Assembly: GCF_003634315.1 (NCBI RefSeq)
Contig: NZ_RBXL01000001.1
Span: 4,630,501 to 4,694,500, forward strand
DNA length: 64,000 nt
Source of the DNA: Thiocapsa rosea
GTDB taxonomy: Bacteria; Pseudomonadota; Gammaproteobacteria; Chromatiales; Chromatiaceae
Reading direction: 5' to 3'
Shown: positions 8,928-60,520 of the stretch, piece after piece
Layout: each line of letters starts with the position of its first letter
How positions within the stretch are numbered: the first letter of the stretch is position 1
Notes under the pieces: model-generated
What the model saw: the letters and a program-made list of their open reading frames with translations, nothing else
Database searches by the model: none
Told to the model about the DNA's origin: nothing
Made by a program: the position numbers and the translations under genes

Positions 8928-9030
8928 TAAACCGCACCCGGCGCGGTATGCGTCATGTGTTGGAATGGCTTGGCCGCGCCGGCTCCGCCGACTGCGTGAA
9001 AATGACGCATTTCGCTCCGGACGCGGTTTA
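8928..9030. repeat. TAAACCGC/GCGGTTTA-bounded element (copy A1, 103 nt)
   Basis: The element starts TAAACCGCACCCGG and ends GGACGCGGTTTA. Inside is a second inverted pair, TGCGTCAT and ATGACGCA. It lies 16 nt upstream of the cyclase start. The other copies are mostly about 85 nt long. Confidence 0.85.
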
Positions 9031-9202
9031 AATCCCTACTACCAAGAATGGCACAGGTTCGGTGAACGTGGGATAGAAAAAAGAGTGATTGACGTTTTTC
9101 ATGGGAGAATCGCGCCGATCCGGGCAAGCTGTGCGCTTCTCAGGGGGATATCTTCAAGCACCCCCGGCTTATCGCACGAAAATCTCAGGAGTGAGCCACC
9201 GG

Positions 9203-9631
9203 ATGGATCGTTTTACACGCAACTACAGTATCGCAATCGGCGTCATCGTGATCGGCGTCCTGGCCGTTTGGATCGGCTCGGCCTGGAAACCGCAGGTTTG
9301 GGAGCTCGACCAAGTGCTGGAGGCCGATCCTCAGGTCTCGTCCTACCCCTATCGCTTCCGGGTGGTCTCGTTCGAGAACGGGGTCGCGACGATCTCGACA
9401 CCGCGCTCGTTCGACATGCCGGCGTACCGTTTCCTCGCCATTATCCACCCGAATCTGACCAACAAGGCGGACAATGATCCGCAGGTAATCGCCGCCCAGC
9501 AGGGGCTGATCGACCACCAGAAGCGTGCCCAAGGTCTGATTCTGGCGCAACCGCAGGTCGAGTCCGTTGAATGGCAGCTGGATACTCAGTGGCTTGCTGC
9601 GCGCGGAATCAATGTCTCGCCGACGCCTTAA
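9203..9631 (+). CDS. Conserved-looking single-pass membrane protein, function unknown
   Basis: I do not recognise this family. The 142-residue product from ATG 9203 has one N-terminal membrane segment (about residues 8-27: YSIAIGVIVIGVLAVWIG) and a soluble C-terminal part, with a Pro/Tyr-rich strand region and a helix near KRAQGLILAQPQ. The start is supported by AGGAG at 9187-9191, 11 nt upstream; a GTG at 9191 is the alternative. The stop codon TAA (9629-9631) is the first three bases of repeat copy A2. Codon use matches the neighbours, so it is probably a real gene. Confidence 0.65.
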   Translation: MDRFTRNYSIAIGVIVIGVLAVWIGSAWKPQVWELDQVLEADPQVSSYPYRFRVVSFENGVATISTPRSFDMPAYRFLAIIHPNLTNKADNDPQVIAAQQGLIDHQKRAQGLILAQPQVESVEWQLDTQWLAARGINVSPTP

Positions 9632-9713
9632 ACCGCGCCGGGTGCGGTATGCGATGTTTTTGGATGGGATCGGCCCCGGCGGACTTGACGACCGTTGGAG
9701 TCGGCGCGGTTTA
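9629..9713. repeat. TAAACCGCG-bounded 85-nt element (copy A2)
   Basis: It starts TAAACCGCGCCGGGTGCGG and ends GTCGGCGCGGTTTA. The inner block TATGCGATGTTTTTGGATGG is shared with copies A5 and A8. The first TAA is the stop codon of the upstream gene. Confidence 0.9.
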
Positions 9714-9775
9714 AGAGATTAAAAAGTTTCGGCGGTTTCCGAAATATTCCGTACCCGCCGGTTGTGCCAACGGTT

Positions 9776-9842
9776 GGTTGTGCCTCGCGCGGCTCGGCAC
9801 AACCTACGGCTCGTCTCTCCTCTCTCCTCTCTCCTCTCTCCT
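9776..9842. repeat. GGTTGTGCC inverted repeat and TCTCTCC heptamer array
   Basis: GGTTGTGCC (9776-9784) pairs with GGCACAACC (9796-9804) around an 11-nt loop. About four tandem copies of the heptamer TCTCTCC follow (9814-9842). The 381-nt stretch between 9631 and 10013 holds only these repeats and copy A2, with no gene visible. Confidence 0.8.
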
Positions 9843-10012
9843 TCCCCCGATGGGCGTATCGTGCGGGAGCCGCTATACTCTTGTCCTCTCAGTCCGTCGG
9901 GCCGGTGTGGGGTCCTTCTGGATGGAGCGGAGCCGCAGGTGAATCTATCCCGGATTCAGGCAGTCAAACCTCGGTGGCCCTTCGGAAGTCGACCCTCAGC
10001 CTGGAGCACCCG

Positions 10013-10513
10013 ATGCACGGCAACATCCCCGAGCAAGACCCTCTTGTCGCAAGCGTAAGCCAAGGCCGCCGACGGGTTTACAACCTGCTGGGCTGGCTGT
10101 GCTTCGGATTGGGCTTTCTGGGGATGGTGTTGCCGTTGATGCCGACGACGGTCTTCTGGATCTGCGCGACCTGGTTGTGGCTACGCAGCTCGCCCAAACG
10201 GGTGCGCTTCCTGGTCGAGCACCCGCGCTTCGGCGCATCGATCCGCGGCTTTCTGGAGCGCGGCGAGATGTGCCGGACCGGCAAGACCGCGGCCATCGGC
10301 AGCATGGCGATCAGTTGGTCGGTCTGGTACGGGCTTGCCACCCCGGGGCCTGCGCTTGCGCTGACCGTCGCGGTCATTCTGGGTTTGGTGGCGCTCTGGC
10401 TCGGAACACGTCCGGAAGGACCCAAACCGCAAACGCAGGTTCGCGTCAGCTTGGACCTCAACAGCTTCTCGCGCGCACCGAATCCCGCAAAATCCCGGAA
10501 CCCGCCAACCTGA
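10013..10513 (+). CDS. YbaN/DUF454 family inner-membrane protein
   Basis: The 166-residue protein from ATG 10013 carries the DUF454 pattern: RVYNLLGWLCFGLGFLGMV, then LPLMPTTVFW, a typical family signature, and SPKRVRFLVEHPRFGASIRGFLERG. It closes with a second pair of hydrophobic segments. Three to four membrane helices are visible, with a short hydrophilic N-terminus and a Pro/Asn-rich tail. The role is unknown. The frame is open for 106 codons upstream, but that part is repeat-rich and unlikely to be coding. The gene appears to stand alone. Confidence 0.8.
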   Translation: MHGNIPEQDPLVASVSQGRRRVYNLLGWLCFGLGFLGMVLPLMPTTVFWICATWLWLRSSPKRVRFLVEHPRFGASIRGFLERGEMCRTGKTAAIGSMAISWSVWYGLATPGPALALTVAVILGLVALWLGTRPEGPKPQTQVRVSLDLNSFSRAPNPAKSRNPPT

Positions 10514-10518
10514 TCCGT

Positions 10519-10549
10519 AGGATGGGTAGAGCGAAGCGAAACCCATCCT
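10519..10549. repeat. AGGATGGGT palindromic repeat (family B)
   Basis: AGGATGGGT pairs with ACCCATCCT around AGAGCGAAGCGAA. The same unit occurs three times at 38132-38290. Confidence 0.85.
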
Positions 10550-10603
10550 CCCCACGCCAACACACAAGCGAGCCTGGCGGCCGAACAAGCTCCGTACTCC
10601 GTG

Positions 10604-10682
10604 GGGTGGACAAGCGAAGCGCAGTCCACCAGCACGCCCGCGAAGACCCTGGTGGACTTCGCTCTCGCTCGTCCACCCTACC
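10604..10682. repeat. GGTGGAC palindromic repeat (family C, copy 1)
   Basis: Two related hairpins (GGTGGACAAGCGAAGCGCAG with TCCACC, then GGTGGACTTCGCTCTCGCTC with GTCCACC) lie head to tail. Similar units are at 11707-11785 and 39411-39491. Confidence 0.8.
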
Positions 10683-10709
10683 CTACTTCCGTTCGGTCAA
10701 TCCCCCGCA

Positions 10710-11570
10710 TCAATCATAAATCAGCTCGGACCAACGTCCCTCGTCGATCATCTTCTGCTTGATCGCCGCCCAGGCTTCGGATGACCCGACGCGCTCCGCC
10801 ATCACCTTATCGAAGACCGCTGCAATCTTGCCCAATCCCGATAGGAAGACATGCGTGTCGGGCTCGTTGATGAGGTGCAATGCATCATCGGCGTTTTCGG
10901 TCAGACCGCGCTCCAATGCCTGCGAGGACGACATCAGGGGACGCGTACCGAGTGCACGGAACGCCTTGAAGGTCTTCTCGTCGTAATAGTTGGCGAGATC
11001 GGTGGTCTCGTCGTTGGTGTACATGAGATCCAGGCCGCTGCGACCGCCGTAATACAGCCGAACCTGCCCCTTCCAATCGCCGCGCCGCTCGTAGATCAGC
11101 TGTGCGAAGGCTCGGAACGGGGCAATGCCGGTCCCGGTCCCGATCATGAGCAGGTTGGCGCGATTGTCCAACGGCATCTTGAAGGGACTCAGATAGGGGC
11201 CGCCGATGGTCAAGGAGGCACCCGGCTTCGCATCGCACAGATAGTTCGAGGCGATACCCGGATAGCGTTCTCCGCTGACCTCGTCGATATAGAAGCAGCG
11301 ACGCACCAAAAGATCGAGTTCGACCCCGGTGTCGATCGGAACGCTGCGCGCGTTGGCAATCGAATAACGGCGGACATGGTAGGCATTGCCGAACGGGTGC
11401 GGCCCGGGAATCACCACGCCGATGCTTTGGCCTTCGACGAACTGAAACGCCGGATCGGCGACCTGAAGGGTGATATGGCGAATCTCTTCGGTGCTCTCGG
11501 GTGTGATGCGTCTGGAATCCTTGATGAACGCCTGAGTCGTCGGACCCACATCGGCCGGGGCTTCACTCAT
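10710..11570 (-). CDS. Ferredoxin/flavodoxin-NADP+ reductase
   Basis: This FAD enzyme moves electrons between reduced ferredoxin or flavodoxin and NADP(H). The 286-residue product shows the FAD-binding RYSIA motif near residue 88 and the NADP-binding pocket motif GTGTGIAPFR near 162. Near the C-terminus are VFLSGLGK and a terminal region ending SELIYD, consistent with plant-type or photosynthetic FNRs rather than the short bacterial Fpr. It is the last gene of the rnf cluster, 228 nt after the Cys-rich gene with a family C repeat between them. It may have its own promoter. The link to PFOR and Rnf suggests that it draws on the same ferredoxin pool. Confidence 0.85.
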   Translation of the reverse strand: MSEAPADVGPTTQAFIKDSRRITPESTEEIRHITLQVADPAFQFVEGQSIGVVIPGPHPFGNAYHVRRYSIANARSVPIDTGVELDLLVRRCFYIDEVSGERYPGIASNYLCDAKPGASLTIGGPYLSPFKMPLDNRANLLMIGTGTGIAPFRAFAQLIYERRGDWKGQVRLYYGGRSGLDLMYTNDETTDLANYYDEKTFKAFRALGTRPLMSSSQALERGLTENADDALHLINEPDTHVFLSGLGKIAAVFDKVMAERVGSSEAWAAIKQKMIDEGRWSELIYD

Positions 11571-11706
11571 GGTTTAGGTGCTCCTATGATCTTCCGGCTC
11601 CATCGGAGCCGATACGCGATGGATGTGATGATTCGCCGTCGCGCGAGCAACGACGAAGCTGAAAAATCGCCCGCTTTCGCGCCGGCCTCGCTCATCAAGC
11701 CGGACG

Positions 11707-11785
11707 GTAGGGTGGACGAGCGAGAGCGAAGTCCACCGAGGTTTGCGCCGGCGTTGGTGGACTGCGCTGCGCTTGTCTACCCTAC
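11707..11785. repeat. GGTGGAC palindromic repeat (family C, copy 2)
   Basis: GTAGGGTGGACGAGCGAGAG with its inverted half, then TGGACTGCGCTGCGCTTG, ending CTACCCTAC. It fills most of the gap between the Cys-rich gene and the FNR gene. Confidence 0.8.
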
Positions 11786-11797
11786 GGGGATGCCCGA

Positions 11798-11965
11798 TCA
11801 GCGTCGCTCGCAGCTTCCGCTGCAGCACGAGCAGCTGCCGTCGTTGCGTCGGAAGGGTCCGAGCTCGGGATGACGGGTCGCAAAGGCGGCATAGAGGTGC
11901 TCCACCAGGACCCACGCCGCGAGCACCAGGAAGATGATCAGGCAGGCCAAGAGGACCTTAACCAT
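11798..11965 (-). CDS. Small Cys-rich single-pass membrane protein of the Rnf cluster (NqrM-like layout)
   Basis: The 55-residue protein overlaps the 3' end of rnfA by 8 nt. One membrane helix (about residues 3-22: KVLLACLIIFLVLAAWVLV) is followed by a Cys-rich tail, SCSCCSGSCER, with four cysteines in seven residues. Small membrane proteins with a Cys cluster, such as NqrM (DUF539), act in maturation of the related Na+-NQR complex, where they are thought to deliver iron to the NqrD/NqrE site that corresponds to RnfA/RnfE. An equivalent role for this protein is inference. The Cys spacing is not that of NqrM, so it may be a separate family. It is short, but coupling to rnfA and the composition make it convincing. 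Confidence 0.7.
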   Translation of the reverse strand: MVKVLLACLIIFLVLAAWVLVEHLYAAFATRHPELGPFRRNDGSCSCCSGSCERR

Positions 11966-12548
11966 GCGAGCCTCCGAGCCCGGCGAAGCCCATGAAGGCG
12001 AGTGAGAGAAGACCCGCCAGCATGAGACTCATGGCCGCGCCCTGGCTGACGCTCGGCACGCGTGCGAGCTCAAGCTTCTCGCGCAGCCCGGCCATCAGCA
12101 TCAAGGCGAGCATGAAGCCAATTCCCGCGCCGAGTGCGTAGACCAGACTCTGCACGAAGTCGTATTCCTTTGCGGTCTGAAAGAGCGCGAGACCCAGGAT
12201 GGCGCAGTTGGTCGTGATCAAGGGCAGAAAGATGCCGAGCGATCGGAACAGCGCGGGGCTGTAGCGCTTGATGAACATCTCGACCAATTGCACCGCCGAG
12301 GCGATCACCGCGATATAGCAGATCAGCCGCAGGAAGAGCAGGTCCAGCTCGGTCAGGAGCCAATTGATGGCGTAGGCGCTCATGGAACTCACCAGCATCA
12401 CGAAGATGACCGCCAGGCCCATGTTCCAGGCGGTCTCTTTCTTCGCCGAGACGCCGAGGATGGGACAAATGCCGAGAAAGAGCGCCAAGACGAAATTATT
12501 GACGACAGCGGCATTCAGAAAGATGAAATAGAGCGACTCATCCTGCAT
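11958..12548 (-). CDS. rnfA: Rnf electron transport complex subunit RnfA
   Basis: RnfA is one of the two homologous six-helix membrane subunits that hold the iron site in the membrane core of the Rnf complex. The 196-residue length is normal. It begins ESLYFIFLNAAVVNNFVLALFLGICP, with the conserved VVNNFV and GICP, and has PLITTNCAILGLAL with its conserved Cys in the second half. It overlaps rnfE by 11 nt and the small Cys-rich gene by 8 nt, so the set is probably translated together. Confidence 0.96.
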   Translation of the reverse strand: MQDESLYFIFLNAAVVNNFVLALFLGICPILGVSAKKETAWNMGLAVIFVMLVSSMSAYAINWLLTELDLLFLRLICYIAVIASAVQLVEMFIKRYSPALFRSLGIFLPLITTNCAILGLALFQTAKEYDFVQSLVYALGAGIGFMLALMLMAGLREKLELARVPSVSQGAAMSLMLAGLLSLAFMGFAGLGGSHG

Positions 12549-13200
12549 TGGCGGCGACCCCGGATTGTTCCATGACCTTGCGCTCCTTGCGCAGACGTAG
12601 CCAGTTGAAGAGCAGCAGCCAGACCCCGAGCACGAAGAAGCCGCCCGGCGGAAGAATCATCACCACCCAGGGTTGGAAGCTTTCTCCGAACAGGGCGATC
12701 CCGAGAATGCTTCCGCTGCCGAGGATCTCCCGAACGGTACCGAGTGCGAGCAGTGCGAGAGTGAAACCCGCACCCATCCCGAGACTGTTCACGAGCGTCG
12801 TGTGCAGGCGCTGTTTCGAGGCATAGGCCTCGGCACGCCCGAGGATGACGCAGTTCGCCACGATCAACTGAATGAAGGCGCCGAGTGCGGCATAGAGCTC
12901 CAGGCTGATCGCCTGAATCCCGTAGTCGACGATGGTGACGAAGGTCGCGATGATGATGATATAGCTGGCGATCCGGACCTGTTTGGGGATCCAGTTGCGC
13001 AGCAGCGAGATCAGCAGGCTTGAGCACACCAGTACGAAGGTCGTCGCCAGGCCCATCGCGATGGCGTTGATGGTCGTGTTGGTGACGGCCAGCACAGGGC
13101 ACATTCCGAGCAGCATCACGAAGACCGGATTCTCTTTCCAGAGTCCTCGGAAGAAGGTATCCGGGCTCAGTCTTTCCTGTGGATTGGGCAGTTCAGCCAT
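12538..13200 (-). CDS. rnfE: Rnf electron transport complex subunit RnfE
   Basis: This is the homologue and partner of RnfA in the membrane core. The 220-residue product shows NPVFVMLLGMCPVLAVT, the counterpart of the RnfA GICP motif, and FIQLIVANCVILGRAEAYA, with the second conserved Cys and the family's GRAEAFA-type signature. Six hydrophobic segments can be traced. It overlaps rnfA and lies 33 nt after rnfG. Confidence 0.95.
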   Translation of the reverse strand: MAELPNPQERLSPDTFFRGLWKENPVFVMLLGMCPVLAVTNTTINAIAMGLATTFVLVCSSLLISLLRNWIPKQVRIASYIIIIATFVTIVDYGIQAISLELYAALGAFIQLIVANCVILGRAEAYASKQRLHTTLVNSLGMGAGFTLALLALGTVREILGSGSILGIALFGESFQPWVVMILPPGGFFVLGVWLLLFNWLRLRKERKVMEQSGVAANAG

Positions 13201-13233
13201 GGTTCATGCCTCGGTGCGAGGAGATGGTCCCGG

Positions 13234-27020: not shown

Positions 27021-27311
27021 ATGCATCTACAGCACACCCGAGCCCTCCGCGACACCTTTGACGTGGACATCCCGCTCCATCCGGATACCCGCTCGTGCGA
27101 GGACGTCGCGACGCTGGTCGAAGGTTTCTTGAGAAGCATCGACAGCTACCGTCGCGACGCGCAAGGTTTGGCCCAAGGCGATGTGCTCCAAGCGCTGTCG
27201 ATCGTGACCGCGGTGCAGATGGCGAAGGGCGAGGCGGCGGAGCGTTTTGGCTCCGGTCTCCAGATCCGATTACGGGGTCTGTCGATCGAGGGCGATTCTG
27301 CCCGGGCCTAA
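27021..27311 (+). CDS. Small protein of unknown function (96 residues)
   Basis: I do not recognise this family. The start at ATG 27021 has a good ribosome-binding site (AGGAGAG, 27008-27014). The product is soluble and mostly helical (TLVEGFLRSIDSYRRDAQ, VLQALSIVTAVQMAKGEAAERF), with no Cys and no signal peptide. The frame is open for 45 codons upstream, but the Shine-Dalgarno sequence favours the chosen Met. Its TAA stop (27309-27311) is the first triplet of repeat copy A3. It is divergent from the MerR gene and may be its target. Confidence 0.6.
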   Translation: MHLQHTRALRDTFDVDIPLHPDTRSCEDVATLVEGFLRSIDSYRRDAQGLAQGDVLQALSIVTAVQMAKGEAAERFGSGLQIRLRGLSIEGDSARA

Positions 27312-27392
27312 ACCGCGTCCAGAGCGAGATGCTCACCTTCGTGTGAGTTCGACGTTCGGTGCATCCACGGCCCTTAGCGGCGACGCGGTTTA
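27309..27392. repeat. TAAACCGCG-bounded 84-nt element (copy A3)
   Basis: It starts TAAACCGCGTCCAGAGCGAG and ends GGCGACGCGGTTTA. The first 20 nt are shared, inverted, with the half element next to fabH (57403-57437). The interior differs from copies A2, A5 and A8. Confidence 0.85.
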
Positions 27393-27612: not shown

Positions 27613-28716
27613 ATGCAACGGACCTCCACCGCCCTCGCGTTTTTATTGACCGTCGGCCTGCCGACATACGCAGCCGTGTCTTCTGCAAACGAGACCCTGC
27701 ATCTCTACAATTGGAGCGATTACGTCGCCGAGGACACGCTCTCCGGATTCGCGGCAGAGACCGGGATCAAGCCGCGCTTGGATGTCTACGACTCCAACGA
27801 GGTGCTCGAGGCGAAGCTCTTCGCCGGGCGCAGCGGCTACGACTTGGTCTTTCCGACCGCCCGACCCTTTGGCGCACGCCACATCAAGGCCGAGCTGTAT
27901 CTGCCGCTGGACAAGTCCAAGCTCCCGGGCCTGGACCAGCTCGACCCGGCGATCATGAGCCAACTGGCGAGTATCGATCCCGACAACGCCCACCTGGTGC
28001 CCTACATGTGGGGAACCTCCGGTTTGGGAATCAATCGCGACAAGGTGCAGTCCGCCTTGGGCGAGACCGCCGACATCGACACCTGGGCACTGATCTTCGA
28101 TCCGGAGACCGCAGCCAAGCTCGGCGCCTGCGGGATCAGTCTCCTGGACGACCCCACGGAGGTCTACTCCGCCGCCCTCGCCTATCTGGGCAAGGATCCC
28201 AACAGCCTCGACAAGGACGACCTCGACGCCGCCTCGGCGCTCATCAAGGCGATCCATCCGTATGTGCGCTACTTTCACTCCTCGCAATACATGAGCGACC
28301 TGGCCAACGGCGATCTCTGTGTCGCGATGGGCTACTCCGGCGACGTCTTTCAGGCACAGTCGCGTGCCGAAGAGGCCGACAGGGGTGTGGTTATCGACTA
28401 TGTCCTCCCGCGCGAAGGCGCGGCGGTCTGGACCGATGTCATGGCGATCCCGAAGGATGCGCCCAACCCGGCAGCCGCGCACGCCTTCATCGCCTACATG
28501 TTGCAGCCCGCCGCCATCGCCGCGGTCTCCAACGCGGTTTACTACGCCAACCCCAACCTCGCGGCCACGCCCTTCTTGGACGAAGCCGTGCGGGAGGATC
28601 CGGCGATCTATCCGCCGGACGAGGTCAAGGCGCGTCTCTTCGTGCCCTCGGAGCGCAGCGACCGGGAGATCCGCGATCTCAACCGTCTCTGGACACGCCT
28701 CAAGGCGAATCGCTGA
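27613..28716 (+). CDS. potF: Putrescine/polyamine ABC transporter periplasmic binding protein
   Basis: This is the solute receptor for a polyamine importer. The 367-residue product has a Sec signal peptide (about residues 1-25, cut likely after SSA) followed by TLHLYNWSDYVAEDTLSGFAAETGI, the standard start of mature PotD/PotF proteins. YDLVFPTARPFGARHI, VPYMWGTSGLGIN and YSGDVFQA follow. The adjoining ATPase and two permease genes confirm the role. Whether putrescine (PotF) or spermidine (PotD) is preferred cannot be told from the sequence; the gene order SBP-ATPase-permease-permease is that of potFGHI. Confidence 0.9.
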   Translation: MQRTSTALAFLLTVGLPTYAAVSSANETLHLYNWSDYVAEDTLSGFAAETGIKPRLDVYDSNEVLEAKLFAGRSGYDLVFPTARPFGARHIKAELYLPLDKSKLPGLDQLDPAIMSQLASIDPDNAHLVPYMWGTSGLGINRDKVQSALGETADIDTWALIFDPETAAKLGACGISLLDDPTEVYSAALAYLGKDPNSLDKDDLDAASALIKAIHPYVRYFHSSQYMSDLANGDLCVAMGYSGDVFQAQSRAEEADRGVVIDYVLPREGAAVWTDVMAIPKDAPNPAAAHAFIAYMLQPAAIAAVSNAVYYANPNLAATPFLDEAVREDPAIYPPDEVKARLFVPSERSDREIRDLNRLWTRLKANR

Positions 28717-32466: not shown

Positions 32467-32478
32467 CCGGTTCGCGGT

Positions 32479-33609
32479 TTAACCCTGCTGCTCGCCGAGC
32501 CGCCCGTTCGCCCCGCCCGAAACGCGTGCGATCAGGCGCTTGAGCCAAAGACTCTCGGGGATCAAGACCAGATAGACGACGCCGAGAATGACGACCTGAT
32601 ACCAGAAGCTCGTCAACCAGATCGGGGTGACGCCTGTCGCGAGCCAATTCTCTGCCAAGCGCTGCAGGTTGAAGAAGCTGAAATAGGCCAGAAAGGCGAG
32701 GGAGAGGCGGCCCGAGCTGCGCTGCCGCGGAGAGAGCGCCACCAGGGGAATCGCGACGATGGTGAGGACGAGGATCGCCAGCGGCGCCGCCAACCGATGC
32801 TCGAGTTCGGCACGGTCGGGAAGCTCGGGCGACGCCAAGAGCGCGAGCGACGGCGTGGTCGAGCGCTTGGAGATCACGCCTTGCGCGGCGCCGGACGCCT
32901 GGATGCGGATCCGATACTCCTCGAACTCTCCGATCATGAAGGCGGGTGAACCCGGATTGCCGTCGAAGCGGTGCCCGGTCGAGAGTGTGACGATATGGTC
33001 GCCCGTGTCTTCCTCGATCCGATGTTGCCCGTTCTCACTCACCACCAGACGAGCGACATCCTCGCGACGGTCGAGGATAAAGACATCACCGAGCGACTGT
33101 CGGCGGTCGATGTCGCCGATATAGAGCACAAGCTCCCCGCCTTGCTCGAGATAGAACCGACCGGGCTGAAGGCCCGCGATCTGCGCGGCTTGCTCCTTCT
33201 GCTGCATCCGGATCTGATGGATCCCGGTGGCCGCCCAAGGCTGAAGGCTCAAGGAGATCCAAGCGGTGACCAAGGCGACCGGCACGGCAAGGAGGAGCAA
33301 CGCACCCAATACCCGTCGCGGACCGACGCCGCAAGCGCTCAGCGCGATCAGCTCGCTGTCGCGCGAGAATCGGCTCAGGGTCACCAGCAGCGCCAGGAAG
33401 AAGGCCGGCGGCAGCAGGTTCGGCATATCGCGCACGACCTGGAAGGCCAGAAACTTGATCACCAAGTGAACGCTCAACGCCCCGACATTCACCTCCTCGA
33501 GCGTGCGCAGAAAAAGCATGCTCGCGACGACCAGGACCAGGATCGCCACGATGGCGGCGAAGACCTTGGTCGCTTCCGAGAGCAAATAGCGATCGACGAT
33601 TCCGAGCAT
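32479..33609 (-). CDS. lptF: LPS export ABC transporter permease LptF
   Basis: LptF with LptG forms the inner-membrane permease that extracts lipopolysaccharide for transport to the outer membrane. The 376-residue protein begins GIVDRYLLSEATKVF and has three N-terminal and three C-terminal membrane helices around a periplasmic jellyroll domain. The family motif FSRDSELIALSACGVG is near residue 82. In most gammaproteobacteria lptG follows directly; here the gene is followed by a convergent hemerythrin gene. The TAA stop (32479-32481) lies in a TAAACCGCG sequence. Confidence 0.9.
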   Translation of the reverse strand: MLGIVDRYLLSEATKVFAAIVAILVLVVASMLFLRTLEEVNVGALSVHLVIKFLAFQVVRDMPNLLPPAFFLALLVTLSRFSRDSELIALSACGVGPRRVLGALLLLAVPVALVTAWISLSLQPWAATGIHQIRMQQKEQAAQIAGLQPGRFYLEQGGELVLYIGDIDRRQSLGDVFILDRREDVARLVVSENGQHRIEEDTGDHIVTLSTGHRFDGNPGSPAFMIGEFEEYRIRIQASGAAQGVISKRSTTPSLALLASPELPDRAELEHRLAAPLAILVLTIVAIPLVALSPRQRSSGRLSLAFLAYFSFFNLQRLAENWLATGVTPIWLTSFWYQVVILGVVYLVLIPESLWLKRLIARVSGGANGRLGEQQG

Positions 33610-33663: not shown

Positions 33664-33724
33664 TAAAACGCGCCCAGCGCGGTATGCGATGGCTCCGGAT
33701 GGGCTCGGCTGCCGAAACATCGAC
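33664..33724. repeat. Degenerate A-type element upstream of lptF (copy A4)
   Basis: TAAAACGCGCCCAGCGCGGT and TATGCGATG, then a TCCGGATGGGCTCGGC block, match the left half of copies A2, A5 and A8. No clear right terminus is present. Confidence 0.6.
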
Positions 33725-33812
33725 CGTCATCGCCTCGCCATCACGGGATCATCAAGGGGTCATCGGGCAGGAAGATACTCGGGCTTTGTTCCGAACGAGA
33801 GGGCAAGCCCCG

Positions 33813-37559: not shown

Positions 37560-38027
37560 TTGGACAGCGATGCCTTTCGTCGAACCTATCGCGCCATCAA
37601 CGAGCGTTACTGCGCTTACGAGAAAGGCATCCTGACCAATCAGTGCAGCTGCTCGGAGGCCGAGAAGTTTTGTATCGCCGAGCGCGAGGGCGTGCATTGC
37701 CGCTCCGACGAGGCGCAGGAGACCTGTATCGCCCTGCTCGACCTCTTGCGTCGGCAAGCCAGATTCGCACTCAAGACCGACGACCGACAGCGCGCGCTAC
37801 CCCATGCGAAGGCGATGCGCCTGCAGATCGGCGGACTGCGCGGCATCGCCGTCGCACTCGACCCCGAGGCCCCTGCCCCCACCGAGATCGCCGACGTGCG
37901 CGCCCTGATCCTCGCCGCCATCGCGCGTTTCGGCGCCATCGAGCACCTACCCTTCCCCCAGATCATGCAGCAAATCGCGGCCTATCGAGCGCGCCGAAGA
38001 CGCCGAGGATCCGACACCCCCCGTTAA
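37560..38027 (+). CDS. Uncharacterised Cys-motif protein downstream of hslR
   Basis: I do not recognise this 155-residue family. The likely start is TTG 37560 (ATG 37569 is the alternative), with GGGAG about 10 nt upstream. The N-terminal third has a Cys cluster (NQCSCSEAEKFCIAEREGVHC, cysteines at about 25, 27, 34 and 43) followed by ETC near 52. This could bind a metal or an iron-sulfur cluster. The rest is helical, with a basic C-terminus. The tight spacing after grxC and hslR suggests one operon and perhaps a redox or stress role. The TAA stop is the first triplet of repeat copy A5. Confidence 0.65.
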   Translation: MDSDAFRRTYRAINERYCAYEKGILTNQCSCSEAEKFCIAEREGVHCRSDEAQETCIALLDLLRRQARFALKTDDRQRALPHAKAMRLQIGGLRGIAVALDPEAPAPTEIADVRALILAAIARFGAIEHLPFPQIMQQIAAYRARRRRRGSDTPR

Positions 38028-38109
38028 ACCGCGCCCCACGCGGCATGCAATGTTTTTGGATGGGATCCGCCCCGGCACAGTTGACGACCGCTGGAGCCGG
38101 CGCGGTTTA
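38025..38109. repeat. TAAACCGCG-bounded 85-nt element (copy A5)
   Basis: It starts TAAACCGCGCCCCACGCGG and ends GCCGGCGCGGTTTA, with ATGTTTTTGGATGGGATC inside as in A2 and A8. The first TAA is the stop of the preceding gene. Confidence 0.9.
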
Positions 38110-38290: not shown

Positions 38291-38855
38291 CGACGACGGG
38301 GCCTGTATCCGAACCGGCGAGTTCAGGCTCACCCGTACCGAACAGCAGCACATGGGTTCCGACAGGCGTGCGATCGAAGAGCTCGATCAGCTCGGGGCCA
38401 TGCATACGGATGCAGCCGTGAGAGCGCGCAACGCCCAGCGGCTCGGTCTCCGGGCAACCGTGGATATAGATAAACCGGCGCAGCGTATCCACACAGCCGC
38501 CCCGGTTGCGGCCGGGCTCGCACCCGGTCAACCAAAGGATCCGGGTTAGAATCCAATCACGGTCCGGATGCTGCGCGGCGAATGCACTGTCGTAAACCTC
38601 GCCGGTCGGTCGACGTCCCCGGAACACGGTCCCGATCAGGCATCCCTCGCCGATGCGAATCCGCACCCGGTGCAGACCCCGCGGCGTGCAGCCGCTGCCG
38701 TGCTGCTCCCCCGCACCCTTCAGTCCGGTCGATACCCGATACTCGCCCAGTCGCCGCGCCCCCTCGTAGAGACCGAGGGTCTGGCGGTCGATATCGATCA
38801 GGATGTGTCTCGAGTGCCACCACATCTCGGCGTCGCGCTGCAGCCTCTTCACCAT
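38283..38855 (-). CDS. L,D-transpeptidase (YkuD domain)
   Basis: This enzyme family forms 3-3 cross-links in peptidoglycan or attaches proteins to it through a catalytic Cys. The 190-residue product from ATG 38855 has the YkuD core: IDIDRQTLGLYEGARRLGEYRVSTG at the start and HGCPETEPLG followed by the active site SHGCIRM near 150. No signal peptide is visible, which is unusual for a periplasmic enzyme; some short LDTs (YbiS-unlike, ErfK-unlike) are also annotated without one. The start lies inside the 3' end of the CYTH gene (7-nt overlap). The last codons are repeat-derived. Confidence 0.87.
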   Translation of the reverse strand: MVKRLQRDAEMWWHSRHILIDIDRQTLGLYEGARRLGEYRVSTGLKGAGEQHGSGCTPRGLHRVRIRIGEGCLIGTVFRGRRPTGEVYDSAFAAQHPDRDWILTRILWLTGCEPGRNRGGCVDTLRRFIYIHGCPETEPLGVARSHGCIRMHGPELIELFDRTPVGTHVLLFGTGEPELAGSDTGPVVDG

Positions 38856-39316
38856 CGGCTGAACGGATGGCGCGCAAGGTTCGAGTTGAAGTAACGCGGA
38901 TCGTCCGAGACCTCTACTCCCGCCCAACCCGGCAGCTCGAACGGTTCCTCCTCGCACGTCAGCTCGATCTCCGCGAGCACCAGTCCGGCGTTCTCGCCGG
39001 CGAAGACATCGACCTCCCACAGATGGCCGCCGCACCGCACCCGATGGCGCACCTTGTCGATGACCGGCAGACTGCTCAAGGTTTCGAGCATGACCCTAGC
39101 CTCCTCGATCGGGATCTCATACTCGAATTCGGAGCGGGTCACACCCGTCGTCCTGCCCTTGATGGTCAGGAAGCCGCGATCCCCCTTCGCCCTCACCCGG
39201 ACCGTGGCACGGCCCGCCTCCGCTAGATAGCCTTGGAGAATCGGCTCGCGGTCCTCGACGCTGTCGCGCCAAGATGCGTTTTTCACCAAAAACTTACGCT
39301 CGATTTCAAGGCCCAT
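38849..39316 (-). CDS. CYTH domain protein (triphosphate tunnel metalloenzyme)
   Basis: CYTH/TTM enzymes hydrolyse inorganic triphosphate or related compounds with Mg2+. The 155-residue product starts MGLEIERKFLV, the EXEXK signature, and continues with RVRAKGDRGFLTIKG and SEFEYEIP, with alternating charged residues that line the tunnel. WEVDVFAGENAGLVLAEIEL near 100-119 supplies the later acidic residues. The length fits the NeuTTM-type class. The start codon overlaps the end of repeat copy A6. Confidence 0.9.
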   Translation of the reverse strand: MGLEIERKFLVKNASWRDSVEDREPILQGYLAEAGRATVRVRAKGDRGFLTIKGRTTGVTRSEFEYEIPIEEARVMLETLSSLPVIDKVRHRVRCGGHLWEVDVFAGENAGLVLAEIELTCEEEPFELPGWAGVEVSDDPRYFNSNLARHPFSRW

Positions 39317-44395: not shown

Positions 44396-44481
44396 TAAAC
44401 CGCGCCGGCTCCGACGGTCGTCGGAGCCGGCGCGGCCAAGTCAATCCAACACACTACGCATACCGCGCCGGGCGCGGTTTA
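44396..44481. repeat. TAAACCGCG-bounded 86-nt element (copy A7, opposite orientation)
   Basis: It starts TAAACCGCGCCGGCTCCGAC and ends GCGCCGGGCGCGGTTTA. The block next to the right end (GCATACCGCGCCGGGCG) is the reverse complement of the left block of A2 and A8, so this copy is inverted. An inner hairpin CCGGCTCCGAC/GTCGGAGCCGG is present. Confidence 0.85.
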
Positions 44482-45483: not shown

Positions 45484-45568
45484 TAAACCGCGCCCGGCGC
45501 GGTATGCGATGTTTTTGGATGGGATCGGCCGCGGCAGACTCGACGATTGCTCGAGCTGGCGCGGTTTA
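45484..45568. repeat. TAAACCGCG-bounded 85-nt element (copy A8) inside the nfeD-paraslipin pair
   Basis: It starts TAAACCGCGCCCGGCGCGG and ends GCTGGCGCGGTTTA, with TATGCGATGTTTTTGGATGG inside as in A2. It fills most of the 152-nt gap between nfeD and the paraslipin gene. Confidence 0.9.
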
Positions 45569-56450: not shown

Positions 56451-57387
56451 GCGCTATCGCCTCCAGTGCCGCTTCGAGTGACTTCGGGTCGAAGACCGGC
56501 AGTGTCATCAGATTGTCGTCGATTCGTTTGTTCAGACCGGTCAGCACTTTGCCCGGACCGCACTCGATCGCGATCCGAACACCTTCGGCGGCGACGGCAT
56601 GCACCGTCTCCACCCAGCGTACCGGGCGAAAGAGCTGTTGGACCAGTTGATCGCGCAGCACGTCGCTGTCGTCGGCGCTCTGCACACTGGCGTTGTGCAG
56701 GACCGCAACCTCAGGGACCCGGATCTCGATTGCAGCCAACCGCTCGGCAAGGCGATCCGCGGCAGGGCGCATCAATGCGCAATGCGAAGGGACACTGACG
56801 GGCAAGGTCAGCGCACGCTTCGCACCGGCGCCCTTCGCTGCATCGATCGCGCGGTTCACTGCGGCAGCATCGCCTGCGATCACCACCTGACCGGGCGCGT
56901 TGAAATTCACGGCCTCGAGCACGGCGCCTTGCGCCTGCTCTGCGCAGAGTGCGATGACCTCGGGGTCGGAGAGCCCCAGCACGGCCGCCATAGCACCCTC
57001 TCCGGCCGGTACGGCCTCCTGCATGAAGCGCGCACGCTCGGCAGCCAAACGCACGCCGTCGGCGAAGCTCAGCGCTCCGGCGGCCACCAAGGCCGAATAC
57101 TCGCCCAGACTGTGACCGGCCATCACGCCCGCGGACGGCCCGCCGGCCTGCAGCCAGGCGCGCCAGACTGCAATACCGGCGCTCAGCACGACGGGTTGGG
57201 TATTCCGGGTGAGATCGAGATCTTCCTTGGGACCTTCGTGGACCAAACGCCAAAGGTCGACACCCAAGGCGTCCGAGGCTTCATCGAAGGTCCTGCGCAC
57301 ATCCGGACAGGACTCCGCGAGGACGTCGAGCATCCCGATCGACTGGGAGCCTTGGCCGGGAAAGAAAGCGGCAATCATGTGTGTCAT
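56440..57387 (-). CDS. fabD: Malonyl-CoA:acyl carrier protein transacylase
   Basis: FabD loads malonyl groups onto ACP. The product is 315 residues from ATG 57387 (ATG 57378 is the alternative). It begins with AAFFPGQGSQSIGML and has the nucleophile Ser in GHSLGEYSALVAAGAL near 90-105. The catalytic His is in VSVPSHCALM near 198. It lies between fabH and fabG in the usual order. Confidence 0.96.
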   Translation of the reverse strand: MTHMIAAFFPGQGSQSIGMLDVLAESCPDVRRTFDEASDALGVDLWRLVHEGPKEDLDLTRNTQPVVLSAGIAVWRAWLQAGGPSAGVMAGHSLGEYSALVAAGALSFADGVRLAAERARFMQEAVPAGEGAMAAVLGLSDPEVIALCAEQAQGAVLEAVNFNAPGQVVIAGDAAAVNRAIDAAKGAGAKRALTLPVSVPSHCALMRPAADRLAERLAAIEIRVPEVAVLHNASVQSADDSDVLRDQLVQQLFRPVRWVETVHAVAAEGVRIAIECGPGKVLTGLNKRIDDNLMTLPVFDPKSLEAALEAIAHAE

Positions 57388-57402
57388 CCGTATCGGCAAC
57401 GA

Positions 57403-57437
57403 TCCAGGAGCGAGTATCTCGCTCTGGACGCGGTTTA
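57403..57437. repeat. Half A-type element at the fabH 3' end (copy A9)
   Basis: The inner palindrome GAGCGAGTATCTCGCTC is followed by TGGACGCGGTTTA. It matches, inverted, the left 20 nt of copy A3. Read on the minus strand, its TAA is the fabH stop. Confidence 0.75.
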
Positions 57438-58391
57438 GTAACGAACCAAGACGGAACCCCAGGTGAAACCGCCCCCGAAGGCTTCCATCAGGAGAAGCTC
57501 GCCGCGTTGAATACGCCCGTCGCGCACCGCTTGATCGAAGGCCAGCGGAATGGATGCGGCGGAGGTGTTGCCGTGCTCGGCCACCGTGACCACGACACGC
57601 TCCATCGGCAGATCCAGCTTACGCGCGGTCGCCTGGATGATCCGGATATTCGCCTGGTGCGGGATCAACCAGTCGATGTCCGACTTGGCTAGACCGGCGG
57701 CCTCGAGGGTCTCGTCGACGATCCGTCCGAGCGTGGTCACGGCAACCCGGAACACCTCGTTGCCCTTCATCTCGATGAATCGGGCATCGGGGTGACCGTT
57801 GCCGAGGCCGCCCGGAACCTGAAGCAGATCCTTGTAGGCACCGTCGGCGTGCAGATGCGTGGAAATGATGCCCGGCTCGTCCGCGGCCTCCAAGACCACC
57901 GCGCCCGCGCCGTCTCCGAAGAGCACGCAGGTCCCGCGATCCTCCCAGTTGAGGATGCGCGAAAGGGTCTCGGCCCCGACGACCAGCGCCCGTTTCGCGG
58001 CACCGGTTCGGATGAATTTATCGGCAACCCCGACCGCATAGACAAAACCCGTGCAGACCGCCTGAAGATCGAAGGCCGGACAGCCGCGCACGCCGAGGCG
58101 CTGCTGCAGAAGACAGGCGGTGCTCGGAAAGAACTGGTCAGGCGTGGTCGTGGCGACGATGATCAGGTCGATGTCGGACGGCTGGAGGCCGGCCGCATCG
58201 AGCGCCCGGCGTGCGGCAACCTCGGCAAGATCGCAACAGGTCTCGCCCTCGGCAACCAGATGACGCTTCTCGATGCCGGTGCGCTCGAAGATCCAGGTGG
58301 CCGTGGTGTCGACGATCGCCTCGAGATCGGCATTCGTCACCGTCCGGGCCGGGAGATGGCTCCCGGTCCCCAGGATACGCGAGTAAATCAT
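57435..58391 (-). CDS. fabH: 3-oxoacyl-[acyl-carrier-protein] synthase III
   Basis: FabH starts fatty acid synthesis by condensing acetyl-CoA with malonyl-ACP. The 318-residue product has the Cys in [13 protein letters not shown] near 113. [11 protein letters not shown] near 245 carries His, and [13 protein letters not shown] near 275 carries Asn. The ATG overlaps the plsX stop (TGATG). The stop codon is part of the A9 repeat. Confidence 0.97.
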
Positions 58392-59419
58392 CAGGCAATC
58401 GCCTTGTATTGTTCGCTGTCGAGATGCCGGCCGACTTGTTCGCCGATCCGCTTGGGGATGTTTGCGTGGATCTCTTTCAGTGCGATGTGGATCGCGTTCT
58501 CGAACGCGATCTCGTCCGCCCCGCCGTGGCTCTTGATCACGATTCCGCGCAGGCCCAAAAGACTGGCACCGTTATAGCGGCGGGGGTCCATCGTGCGGCG
58601 GAACTGCTTGAGAATCGGCATCGCGGCAAGGCCGGCCAGTCGGCTGAACCAGGTCCGCTTAAACTGCGTGCTCAAGGAATGCCGGACAAACTTGGCAACC
58701 CCTTCGCTGCATTTGAGGGCCACATTCCCGACGAATCCGTCGGCAACGACCACGTCGATGTCGTCGAGAAAGATCCCGTCGCCCTCGATGTAGCCGACAT
58801 AATTCAAGCCGCTGCGCAACAGCAGCTCGTTGGCCTGCTTGACCTGCTCGTTGCCTTTGATCTCTTCCTGACCGATGTTCAGGAGCGCGACACGCGGTGC
58901 TGCGACACCTTCGACCGCGGTCACCAGTTCGCTGCCCATCACCGCAAACTGGAACAGATGCTCGGCCGTACAATCCACGTTCGCACCCAAATCGAGCATG
59001 TGGGTGTGCCCGTGCAGGGAGGGTACGGCTGTGATGATCGCCGGGCGATCGACACTCGGCAGGGTCTTGAGGACAAAACGCGCGGTCGCCATGAGCGCCC
59101 CGGTGTTGCCGGCACTGACGCACGCGTCGGCGTCGCCGCTCTTCACCAGATCGATGGCCACGCGCATCGAGGAGTCTTTTTTTCCTCTCAGCGCCTTGGA
59201 GGGTGCCTCGTCCATCCCGACTTCCTGAGTCGTCGGTCGGATCCTCAGCCGTGTGCGATCGGCGTTTCCGAGGTGCTCGGCGATCTTGGTCTCATCGCCG
59301 ACGAGGATCAGATCGACGCGCTCGGAGGCTGCGAGGAAACGCAGCGCCGCTGCAACCACGACGTCTGGCCCATGATCACCGCCCATGGCATCGAGCGCGA
59401 TTGTCGAGATAGATCCCAT
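58391..59419 (-). CDS. plsX: Phosphate acyltransferase PlsX
   Basis: PlsX makes acyl-phosphate from acyl-ACP for phospholipid synthesis. The 342-residue product from ATG 59419 shows [28 protein letters not shown] and [19 protein letters not shown], all family signatures. A longer upstream frame is not supported. It lies 65 nt after rpmF. Confidence 0.96.
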
Positions 59420-59484
59420 CCCTAGAACGTTCGAGCTGCGGATATGCGTTGGCTTGAGAGTTGCCTCGAGGCGACCGCGTGCGG

Positions 59485-59661
59485 TCACTCAGAGCGATCC
59501 AGAACCTTACGGCCGCGGTAGAAACCGTCCGGCGTCACGTGGTGGCGAAGATGCGTCTCGCCGCTGGTGGGGTCCACCGACAAGGTCGGCTTACTCAAGG
59601 CGTCATGGGAGCGACGCATGCCGCGCTTGGACGGGGTTTTTCGATTTTGTTGAACGGCCAT
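59485..59661 (-). CDS. rpmF: 50S ribosomal protein L32
   Basis: The 58-residue product starts [20 protein letters not shown], the usual L32 N-terminus, and ends [12 protein letters not shown]. No zinc-binding Cys residues are present, so it is the C-minus form. It lies between yceD and plsX, the conserved order. Confidence 0.97.
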
Positions 59662-59804
59662 CTTAGATCTCCGATATGAAGCGCGGCCGCCGCTTGAGCG
59701 GGAGCGCGATCTGTTTTCCAATCCATCAATCGTATCGTCGAGCGCCGCACACGGTTCGACCCTCGCATGTCTGTCCGAGCATGCCGTGGTCCCGTATCAC
59801 GGGC

Positions 59805-60395
59805 TCATGTCTGCGGCGGTCGTTTGAGTGCCGCCAACATCTCGAAGGGCCGGCGTTTCCCATCCGATCCAGCGGCTCCTACTCCTGCCGATGCGGCCGC
59901 GTCGTCACCCTCGATCGGCCCCGCGCTGCAGGCTCCGAGAGGATGGCGCGGGATTGCGGGGACCGCCAACAGCAGTTCGTCCTCGACGAACTCCATCGGG
60001 TCGACCCGCTCATCGACGACCATCCAGGGGTCAAGATCCTCGGGCAGCTCAAGGGCGTCTTCGTCCCGGCGGATCAGGGCCAGCGCGATCGGCGCGTCGA
60101 CCGGAACCTCGACCTCGTCGAGGCAACGCTGACAACGCATCTTCAGGGTTGCACGCACGCGCCCCGTCACGATGCACCGGCCCTCGCGATCCCGTGCGAA
60201 CAACAGCTCGTAGTGCGCAGCGTCGGCGGCCACGGTCTGGGCGTTTGCCGAATCGGCCTCCGTCGGGGCGCGCTCCAGAGCGTCCATGGCGGCAGCAAGC
60301 CGCGGCATCGCGCTCAACAACACATCGCCGTTGAAGGCCATTTCACGGCGACACGCTCGCCAAGGGTCGATCAGATCAAGAGGTGCGCCCGACAT
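59805..60395 (-). CDS. yceD: YceD/DUF177 family protein (23S rRNA accumulation protein)
   Basis: YceD has been linked to 23S rRNA accumulation. The 196-residue product from ATG 60395 has the family metal-like site CQRCLDEVEVPVDAPIALALI and VDPMEFVEDELLLAVPAIPRH. Its C-terminus is RPFEMLAALKRP, as in E. coli YceD. An Ala/Gly-rich insertion is present near residue 170. It lies 143 nt upstream of rpmF. Confidence 0.9.
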   Translation of the reverse strand: MSGAPLDLIDPWRACRREMAFNGDVLLSAMPRLAAAMDALERAPTEADSANAQTVAADAAHYELLFARDREGRCIVTGRVRATLKMRCQRCLDEVEVPVDAPIALALIRRDEDALELPEDLDPWMVVDERVDPMEFVEDELLLAVPAIPRHPLGACSAGPIEGDDAAASAGVGAAGSDGKRRPFEMLAALKRPPQT

Positions 60396-60404
60396 AAGCG
60401 CGCA

Positions 60405-60434
60405 AAAGTAGCGCAAATAGACTCGCAGCGTCAA
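60405..60434 (-). promoter_or_regulatory. Candidate promoter for yceD-rpmF-fab cluster, TTGACG-18 nt-TACTTT
   Basis: On the minus strand, TTGACG (60434-60429) and TACTTT (60410-60405) are spaced by 18 nt. The -10 box is only 9 nt upstream of the yceD ATG, so the mRNA would be nearly leaderless if this is used. The -35 box lies right beside repeat copy A10. Confidence 0.4.
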
Positions 60435-60436
60435 CC

Positions 60437-60520
60437 TAAACCGCGTCTCACCGAGATCGAGAACATCTCCGAAGGCAAAAGCGAAATGACCATGACGCAT
60501 GTCGCCCTGGACGCGGTTTA
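60437..60520. repeat. TAAACCGCG-bounded 84-nt element (copy A10)
   Basis: It starts TAAACCGCGTCTCACCGAG and ends CCTGGACGCGGTTTA. Read on the minus strand, the end TAA is the stop of oadB. The interior is unlike A2, A5 and A8. Confidence 0.85.

Follow-up and report, generated by a model that had tools for sequence, protein, structure and literature searches.

RUP is tied to IS630-Spn1, and IS630 itself reportedly prefers a TA within CTAG. The IESs of Paramecium, which are excised during development, are bounded by TA; they are short, their ends are conserved and their lengths restricted. The terminal inverted repeats, target duplications and TA termini of RUP, ERIC and Correia elements have been tabulated in a review (PMC2229807, in excerpt), and IS630/Tc1-mariner elements duplicate TA (PMC2170065, in excerpt). 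As far as the available part of PMC10969869 extends, ERIC of Yersinia, found at gene 3' ends, alters transcript levels by way of an RNase E site located in the terminal repeat, the ends of Correia elements are cut by RNase III, and QMITE2 of Coxiella is mainly located in 3' UTRs. REPs are described, in the excerpt of PMC3733652, as 20-40-nt palindromes with a GTAG or CGTC tag that form inverted dimers, with heterodimers preferred in most families, and whose termini often supply stop codons.

In the 64,000-nt stretch of Thiocapsa DNA that was analysed (the window), TAAACCGCG was found 17 times as compared with 0.17 expected from shuffles. The genome-wide count yielded 579 exact TAAACCGCG-N40-70-CGCGGTTTA pairs and 0 for the reversed control, so that the pair is enriched and the family of elements first described in the earlier note is real. 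The length distribution peaks at 84-86 bp, the terminal inverted repeat is of 11 nt (TAAACCGCGYC, TA counted), and the unit can be written as TA-[AACCGCGYC ... GRCGCGGTT]-TA. Besides the 84-86-bp single, an inverted heterodimer of approximately 191 bp is present, formed by an X half, an AT-rich spacer of approximately 23 nt and an inverted Y half (X+ spacer Y- in 144 of 173 adjacent pairs), and empty sites were found for both forms. The hundreds of dispersed copies belong to few subfamilies, the four main ones being X1, X2, Y1 and Y2, and their interior is not AT-rich. The elements share with MITEs the short size, the terminal inverted repeats, the high number of copies (579 exact ones) and the non-coding nature, the latter judged by size alone. 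No Rfam family matched above the gathering score within the window, and no title among the literature matches listed for the 9-mers, Thiocapsa, Chromatiaceae and purple sulfur bacteria describes such a repeat. Matches to the pattern were also observed in Laspinema and in one Chitinophagaceae MAG, where tens of chance matches are expected from a hand calculation.

For seven copies of the window (the full singles listed below), located where the earlier note had placed them, the mismatches of the two ends together do not exceed 2, and three others were redefined: that at 8928-9030 is a chimera, that at 33664 is decayed and that at 57403-57437 is an outer end only. The gene stops assigned to the elements at 9631 (+), 27311 (+), 38027 (+), 57435 (-) and 60518 (-) are those of the ORF list, which also places the lptF stop at 32479 (-) inside an isolated TAAACCGCG. 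The three copies recognized as having ATGTTTTTGGATGG in common (9629, 38025 and 45484) belong to one subfamily, X2. The features are as follows:

8928..9030, plus strand: deletion chimera of a doublet, 103 nt, in which outer ends of X1 and Y type are joined (interior HMM match to X1 at 8941-9000; 1 mismatch in the left end)
9629..9713, plus strand: full single, X2, alpha end left; TAA 9629-9631 is the stop of the plus-strand gene ending at 9631 (RNA fold -37.5 kcal/mol, z -1.8)
27309..27392, plus strand: full single, Y2, alpha end left; the plus-strand gene ending at 27311 has this TAA as its stop (RNA fold z -2.8)
28533..28541, minus strand: isolated TAAACCGCG 9-mer, no partner end
32473..32481, minus strand: isolated TAAACCGCG over the stop of lptF (PF03739), where no element was detected; may be a relic or due to chance
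33664..33750, plus strand: decayed X2, right end lost (interior HMM 25 bits; mismatches, 1 on the left and at least 4 on the right)
38025..38109, plus strand: full single, X2; TAA is the stop of the plus-strand gene ending at 38027 (RNA fold z -1.9); site empty in relative G003 (L198), with a gap of 3 and TAA at the same codon
39316..39400, plus strand: full single outside the four main subfamilies, one mismatch in the right end (RNA fold z -4.0); left TA plus flank read ATG on the minus strand, the predicted start of a CYTH-domain gene (38849-39316)
44396..44481, minus strand: full single, X1, alpha end right (RNA fold -54.8 kcal/mol, z -5.5)
45484..45568, plus strand: full single, X2; three relatives (L199, L208, L202) have a copy at this site, 81-89% identical
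57403..57437, minus strand: Y2 outer-end remnant; the minus-strand FabH-like gene (PF08541/PF08545), ending at 57435, takes its stop from the terminal TAA
60437..60520, minus strand: full single, Y1, alpha end right; the minus-strand OAD-beta gene (PF03977), ending at 60518, takes its stop from the terminal TAA (RNA fold z -2.4)

The suggestion that these are small mobile elements is supported by the empty sites of relatives. Of 29 close comparisons, 18 had a gap of exactly 2 nt and 11 a gap of another length; in a further set, overlapping with the 29, it was exactly 2 nt in 13 of 18. Such 2-nt footprints cover both singles and doublets, as exemplified by the CTAG of G001 at the site of the doublet at 848960 of G000. 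In the 18 two-nt empty sites the dinucleotide was TA (9), TG (3), CG (2), CA (2), AA (1) or GA (1), and empty sites include CTAG, CTAA and TTAG. We infer a TA target with later mutation, or else some sites never were TA. Y..R flanks were found in 218 of 226 copies (doublets' inner ends counted), and YTAR at 135 of the 142 insertion units of 1.26 Mb of the own genome (TTAA, 48; CTAG, 33; TTAG, 28; CTAA, 26; others, 7). Both the target duplication with empty sites typical of MITEs and the TA target with CTAG-like preference of IS630/Tc1-mariner elements are thus observed, and the footprint appears similar to that of an IS630/Tc1-mariner-type insertion at YTAR. Moreover, the same TA site holds unlike elements in different species (identity 0.48-0.68), with flanks up to 97% identical. 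A structural 3'-end signal evolved by the host, terminator-like, never mobile and spread by duplication, would fit the conservation of the ends at resident sites, the 3'-end bias and the orientation at stops presented below. However, it is largely refuted by the empty sites with 2-nt footprints for singles and doublets alike, unlike elements occupy one TA site, and hundreds of dispersed copies of few subfamilies require transposition, so that its probability is minimal.

The terminal TA of the unit is part of a gene stop in 68 of the 142 insertion units; of the 1106 empty YTAR sites that are non-coding or at a stop, 144 overlap a stop (Fisher p 3e-20). The overlap with stop codons, the count of which had been proposed in the earlier note, is therefore above chance, and 68 of the 212 eligible stops of the 1.26 Mb are filled. 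None of the 142 units lies inside a gene and 3 run into one. The filled share of YTAR sites is.32 at the stop,.39 at 1-10 nt after it,.14 at 11-25 nt and.11 at 26-50 nt, and farther away.085 (51-100 nt),.063 (101-200 nt) and.042 (>200 nt). The stop is not special with respect to the following 1-10 nt (68/212 versus 14/36, p 0.45). Thus, the proposed preference for stop codons is real, but not specific to the stop as such: it reflects the YTAR target, because every TAA/TAG stop is itself TAR, combined with a steep bias towards gene 3' ends. The element enters an existing stop and rebuilds one, the gene keeping its end because the target TA and the first base of the element, A, make TAA; in all 11 comparisons, which cover 8 sites, the codon concerned is already a stop in the empty relative. 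An element is present in 9 of 18 cases of convergent genes 0-30 nt apart and in 0 of 176 cases of overlapping tandem genes.

Selection against insertions elsewhere could generate the 3'-end bias without any use by the host. The elements would then be purely selfish TA-target MITEs, placed at 3' ends and stops by purging from other locations and with constant ends since only intact copies spread. The absence of units inside genes (0/142), the TAA/TAG stops being YTAR targets, the decay of filling with distance from the stop, with no excess at the stop over the next 1-10 nt, and the unlike elements found at the same TA site across species, which imply that good sites refill, all agree with this explanation. 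We nevertheless regard it as rather unlikely by taking into account the behaviour of the ends in copies already resident at a given site and the orientation of singles at stops (29 to 7).

In same-site copies of different species, identified by the interior HMM only, changes amounted to 20/726 in the ends, 277/2068 in the interior and 210/1716 in the flanks, in agreement with the early notion that the ends are under stronger constraint than the centre. The corresponding values at shared sites were 11/462, 250/1319 and 179/1260 for singles, and 6/198, 229/1533 and 38/540 for doublets. The rate of change in the ends is lower by a factor of 5 to 8 than that in the interior and by a factor of 2 to 6 than that in the flanks. 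In doublets, the difference between flanks (38/540) and outer ends (6/198) is only approximately twofold. The rate edge falls between positions 11 and 12 (0/42 versus 16/42 in shared-site copies; 3/66 versus 12/66 in the interior-HMM-only copies). Both 9-nt ends are perfect in 130 of 199 paralogues found by the interior, and positions 1-9 carry the same letters in nearly all copies of a search that required the first six letters of both ends. Selection seems to act on the ends after insertion, because resident copies change less there than in the interior or flanks, which counts against selfish elements since selection for spreading cannot act in this way once insertion has occurred. The slow change suggests a present use of the ends by the host.

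Position 10 covaries across all copies (n=353; C:G 175, T:A 148), being complementary in 92% versus 49% of shuffled pairs, and in X2 the counts are T:A 21, C:A 3 and T:G 1. These values would fit template switching between the arms that repairs one from the other, keeping them alike with no selection on sequence. This process, however, would keep complementarity and not letters, and positions 1-9 are constant in nearly all copies and in the shared ones. In Y1 and Y2 single changes are more frequent (T:G 17, C:A 7) than the double change (C:G 3), so that much of the covariation separates subfamilies. Furthermore, the nearest neighbour is T:A in 9 of the 21 T:A copies of X2, and no paired double change at position 10 was detected in shared copies among 21 singles. 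Template switching is thus highly improbable. These subfamily counts and nearest neighbours also weaken the case for compensatory evolution at position 10.

With respect to the structural 3'-end signal considered in the earlier note, the conservation of the arms at resident sites and the orientation of singles exactly at stops (alpha end beside the stop in 29, beta in 7; p 3e-4) are in favour, but singles between tandem genes, all together, have no orientation (26 to 24). For doublets between tandem genes Y is first in 24 and X in 10 (p 0.024), the values exactly at stops being 19 and 14. An ordinary intrinsic (Rho-independent) terminator is not favoured: of 102 flanks, the 30 inspected do not show a consistent U-run after the hairpin, and the stem of the element ends in UUUA only. 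In each of the five groups the alpha-first strand has the lower raw fold energy, which was put down to the G/T-rich composition; shuffle-normalized energies gave no consistent strand difference and hence no RNA strand preference.

No autonomous copy or full-length element with these ends was found in 1.26 Mb of the own genome, approximately 21% of it, where three unpartnered end pairs are 250-4000 nt apart; two enclose host genes and the third spans 980912-984758. A possible composite transposon at 652937-653703 was dropped, the elements flanking a host ORF. At 32 of 41 IS630-domain (PF13358) loci, namely 30 and two more of G000 (L307, L310), so that all 7 of G000 are included, no matching IS630 transposase lies between these ends; those with recognizable ends carry others, e.g. 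TAGTG... and TATACC.... Membership among IS630/Tc1-mariner-derived MITEs is not claimed, as no transposase with matching ends is present at the loci inspected.

The palindromic hairpins, the inverted dimers of unlike halves and the termini giving stops, as in REPs (excerpt of PMC3733652), could also indicate a REP/REPIN-type element moved as single-stranded DNA by a RAYT (Y1 tyrosine transposase) that recognizes the ends as hairpins. The genome contains 9 Y1 matches and, with TA on both borders, one TA could belong to the element rather than to a duplication. All 9 were inspected, with flanks of approximately 1.3 kb or more on each side for seven and 3 kb for two, and none lies between an outward pair of element ends. 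One has a full element copy approximately 1.3 kb away on one side, and another is bordered on either side by unpartnered end-like 9-mers of the same orientation. Y1 matches were also found in three genomes of the genus that have no exact element copies (14, 4 and 4), and the unit is of 85 nt instead of 20-40, ends in TAAACC and has no GTAG/CGTC tag. Among the features of REPs and REPINs, inverted dimers are present, and the tagged 20-40-nt palindrome and a RAYT flanked by repeats are absent. Mobilization by a RAYT is therefore improbable, and the term REP-like holds for behaviour (palindromic, intergenic, biased to 3' ends, in inverted dimers), but not for membership (size, tag, TA borders, no outward pair of ends around any of the 9 Y1 matches).

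Overall, we favour a new TA-target MITE family of purple sulfur bacteria that has probably been recruited to form hairpins at mRNA 3' ends, a use suggested by the conservation and position of the copies. The outer TAs of the unit would be the duplicated target of a YTAR site, and movement would have been catalysed in trans by an IS630/Tc1-mariner-type DDE transposase, now lost or not recognized. TAA/TAG stops following a pyrimidine are natural YTAR targets, with insertion restoring the stop. The retention of copies at 3' ends would be due to a role of the folded end, most likely that of an mRNA 3' hairpin limiting decay or read-through and recognized by a factor that reads the end sequence. 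A bolder version, which we put forward tentatively, is that the host has turned a transposon family into an mRNA 3'-end signal used across the genome, occupying approximately one-third of eligible stops in the part read (68/212), in which TAAACCGCGYC is selected at resident sites and read by a putative factor, the interior is free to vary, and rebuilding of the stop made transposition an almost harmless way to install the signal. The system offers a clean natural case in which insertion into a stop codon is nearly harmless by construction (target TA plus the A of the element). Same-site copies across species allow selection for spreading to be distinguished from selection for host use, and the role of REP-like 3' hairpins becomes testable in culturable purple sulfur bacteria. 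Should the ends bind a factor, one protein would act at hundreds of transcript ends.

As compared with known systems, the Thiocapsa element resembles Paramecium IESs in being short, TA-bounded, with conserved ends and restricted lengths, but nothing in it shows excision, which IESs undergo in development. Similarity with the TA-ended MITEs RUP of pneumococcus, ERIC and Correia/NEMIS, as far as the excerpted sources describe them, includes the short size, the TA-starting terminal inverted repeats, the target duplication, the mostly intergenic location and the many copies. Unlike RUP, ERIC and Correia, from which it is set apart by description, it has another end sequence, an interior that is not AT-rich, two modular half-types in ordered heterodimers and an end constraint measured at resident sites; unlike RUP with its IS630-Spn1, its parent IS was not found among the loci inspected. 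For ERIC and Correia the effect on transcripts was tested by experiment, according to the same excerpts, whereas a function of the Thiocapsa element is suggested by conservation and position. With respect to the REP/REPIN description in the excerpt, the unit differs in its 85 nt, the absence of a GTAG/CGTC tag, the TA at both borders and the absence of a RAYT between its ends (9 checked), yet it shares with REP, REPIN and BIME the palindromes in inverted dimers, the preference for unlike halves and the termini giving stop codons. With ERIC of Yersinia and QMITE2 of Coxiella, as described in part of their source, it has in common the location of a MITE 3' of genes.

The pairing of element ends extends well beyond the window, in which TAAACCGCG is found 17 times (0.17 expected). 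Across the Thiocapsa rosea genome (G000, 6.11 Mb on two contigs, with 5.89 Mb in the chromosome containing the window), 579 pairs at 40-70 nt spacing were counted against none for the reversed control, confirming the genome-wide enrichment on which the earlier note depended. In a 1.264 Mb sample of this genome (the window plus the initial 1.2 Mb of the chromosome, with 5 kb masked as N), 147 exact pairs and, allowing at most two end mismatches in all, 241 copies were identified; lengths peak at 84, 85 and 86 (82, 75 and 43 pairs, respectively, in the 1.2 Mb when each end may carry no more than one mismatch). Exact pairs number 119-579 per genome in eight of the 11 genomes of the genus, T. rosea included, and no exact copy was found in the other three (G006, G007 and G010), which nevertheless contain Y1 transposases; the family may have been lost there or may never have invaded. 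The pattern is present in 12 of 116 sampled genomes of the family Chromatiaceae: beyond the genus two genera are rich in it (264 and 80 matches) and six genomes have 1-3, with Thiobaca, Thiocystis and Lamprocystis as carriers among the matches listed. Outside Chromatiaceae, Laspinema sp. D2d (L050) and a Chitinophagaceae MAG (L087) yielded one end-pair match each, through either chance or transfer. No description of the family was found among the titles listed for the literature on Thiocapsa, purple sulfur bacteria and such repeats.

Across 353 distinct copies, each selected for a TAAACC end, a GGTTTA end and an exact 9-mer at one end or both, the arms are complementary through position 11, which yields the end repeat TAAACCGCGYC; past that position the two ends diverge in a fixed manner; the end carrying ..CRGWGCGRYATGCG is termed alpha, the opposite one beta. 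Subfamilies X2 (190), Y1 (101), Y2 (97) and X1 (92) were distinguished among 592 copies from T. rosea and its relatives' sequences, while 112 fit none well. In 144 of 173 adjacent pairs an X half is followed by an inverted Y half with alpha ends outward (X2-Y2, 65; X1-Y1, 40; X2-Y1, 30; X1-Y2, 9), forming a doublet; the spacer measures 21-24 nt in 151 of the 173 (23 nt in 89) and is 83% AT in own-genome doublets. Because such an AT-rich stretch is retained on the beta side of 18 of 102 own singles (on the alpha side, 1/102), some singles are worn doublets; others show clean empty sites of their own. Of the window's seven full copies, six were folded; five close with a terminal stem of 11-13 bp and the sixth with one of 8 bp, at z-scores from −1.8 to −5.5. 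Position 10 covaries across all copies, although much of that signal separates subfamilies.

That the family is mobile is well supported. Y..R flanks surround 218 of 226 copies and, when insertion units are counted instead, 135 of 142; the gap in relatives' orthologous stretches is exactly 2 nt in 13 of 18 comparisons, or in 18 of 29 in a larger, overlapping set, several of the comparisons sharing a site. The bases at the 18 two-nucleotide empty sites are TA (9), TG (3), CG (2), CA (2), AA (1) and GA (1); a relative that has lost TA would be likelier to be empty, which may account for part of the non-TA sites. Single and doublet each behave as one insertion, as in the doublet at G000 848960-849150, opposite CTAG in G001. 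A TA occupied by a single in one species can also carry a doublet in a different one. In three such cases the single resembles one doublet half (identity 0.75-0.91), and other shared TA sites contain unlike elements (identity 0.48-0.68) between flanks up to 97% identical; this occupation of one TA by unlike elements points to good sites having been filled repeatedly.

Genes were called with a purpose-built, simple codon-usage caller (1077 genes in 1.264 Mb). Among the 142 insertion units whose ends each have no more than one mismatch, the terminal TA forms part of a called gene's stop codon in 68; three are run into by a gene and none lies inside one. The null set comprised 1106 empty YTAR sites that are either non-coding or at a stop (144 of the latter kind). 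The fraction filled was 68/212 exactly at the stop, 14/36 at 1-10 nt past it, 7/49 at 11-25 nt, 6/54 at 26-50 nt, 11/129 at 51-100 nt, 12/190 at 101-200 nt and 24/577 farther away, this last bin being possibly diluted by genes that the caller missed. The frequent coincidence with stop codons reported earlier therefore stands, but the filling at 1-10 nt recasts the supposed preference for stops as a gene 3'-end bias of a YTAR-targeting element. Stops serve as targets because TAA and TAG are themselves TAR, the element adding the next A. Where an own copy at a stop was compared with a relative having a 1-3-nt gap, the empty relative has its stop at the identical codon in 11 of 11 comparisons (eight sites; TAG 5, TAA 5, TGA 1), so that insertion preserves the protein end and often converts TAG to TAA; in one of the eight, copy 1096067, the stop is now TGA through a change within the copy's own end. 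Such rebuilding of the stop codon is well founded. An element is present in nine of 18 convergent gene pairs 0-30 nt apart and in none of 176 overlapping tandem pairs. On the minus strand at window position 39316, the terminal TA and flank form the ATG predicted to start a CYTH-domain gene (38849-39316), whose start codon the element may have shifted.

The ends were also proposed to be more constrained than the centre, and a comparison of copies that two species share at one site bears this out. In a first set, picked by ends (33 pairs, three dropped as different elements at <72% identity), changes in singles were 11/462 at the ends, 250/1319 in the interior and 179/1260 in the flanks; the values for doublets, with inner ends tallied as interior, were 6/198 (outer ends), 229/1533 and 38/540. 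The rate of change at the ends is thus lower than in the interior by a factor of 5 to 8, and lower than in the flanks by a factor of 2 to 6; picking one partner by its ends could at most halve the expected end changes. Since end-based choice may bias the end counts, the test was repeated with copies found by an interior-only HMM (33 pairs kept, three dropped at <70% interior identity; 30 distinct query copies, some in more than one pair), giving 20/726, 277/2068 and 210/1716 for ends, interior and flanks. The rate edge lies at positions 11|12 (0/42 versus 16/42 in the first test, 3/66 versus 12/66 in the second). Of 199 own-genome copies detected with an interior HMM built from other genomes, 130 are perfect at both 9-nt ends, and in 14 an end carries at least three mismatches; end-chosen copies differ from their subfamily consensus by 13-18% in the interior and 2-4% at the ends. 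Slower change of the ends is well supported.

Because selection for spreading no longer acts on a copy once it has inserted, the slow ends of shared copies call for a use where those copies reside. The orientation data agree in part: singles exactly at a stop have alpha toward it in 29 cases and beta in 7 (p = 3e-4), and copies outside the four subfamilies, oriented by weak similarity only, do so 14 to 0, while singles between tandem genes overall show no orientation (26 to 24). At positions 1-9 the letters themselves are retained, not the pairing alone, which argues for a factor reading the sequence; the element may work either as an RNA hairpin or as a DNA site. Judging from these sequence patterns, co-option as a 3'-end signal would most likely be the reason for the slow ends.

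Transposition by IS630/Tc1-mariner elements duplicates TA, as described in PMC2170065, and the 2-nt footprints and YTAR sites would match the expected action of such a transposase. None with the element's ends was found among the IS630-domain loci inspected or in the 1.264 Mb searched for long elements. IS630-type loci with other ends (TATACC..., approx. 1.17 kb; TAGTG..., approx. 1.3 kb) do occur in the genus.

Candidate trans-acting sources
L217, L225, L231, L233, L238, L242; L216, L228, L230: IS630-type loci with other ends

Three further loci of T. rosea were noted. The Y1 transposase match at 584460-584783 (G000 584109-584880) has 35-nt inverted flanks of its own (GGAATTACGGTGACACTGTACC...) that show no relation to the element. 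At L308 (G000:C1 5825000-5828100) a Y1 match is bracketed by end-like 9-mers, one exact and one with a mismatch, which run in the same direction with no partner end and are probably chance or relics. The stretch G000:C1 652937-653703 has one host ORF (653042-653588) bracketed by two degenerate elements whose alpha ends face outward, possibly a composite or a coincidence.

As to the REP-like nature put forward in the earlier note, no match in G000 to the Y1 tyrosine transposase (RAYT) domain, distinct from subfamily Y1, sits between an outward pair of element ends, so that the likeness holds for behaviour and not for an associated RAYT. The elements form a large, real family of TA-targeting, palindromic, MITE-like units that behave in a REP-like manner.
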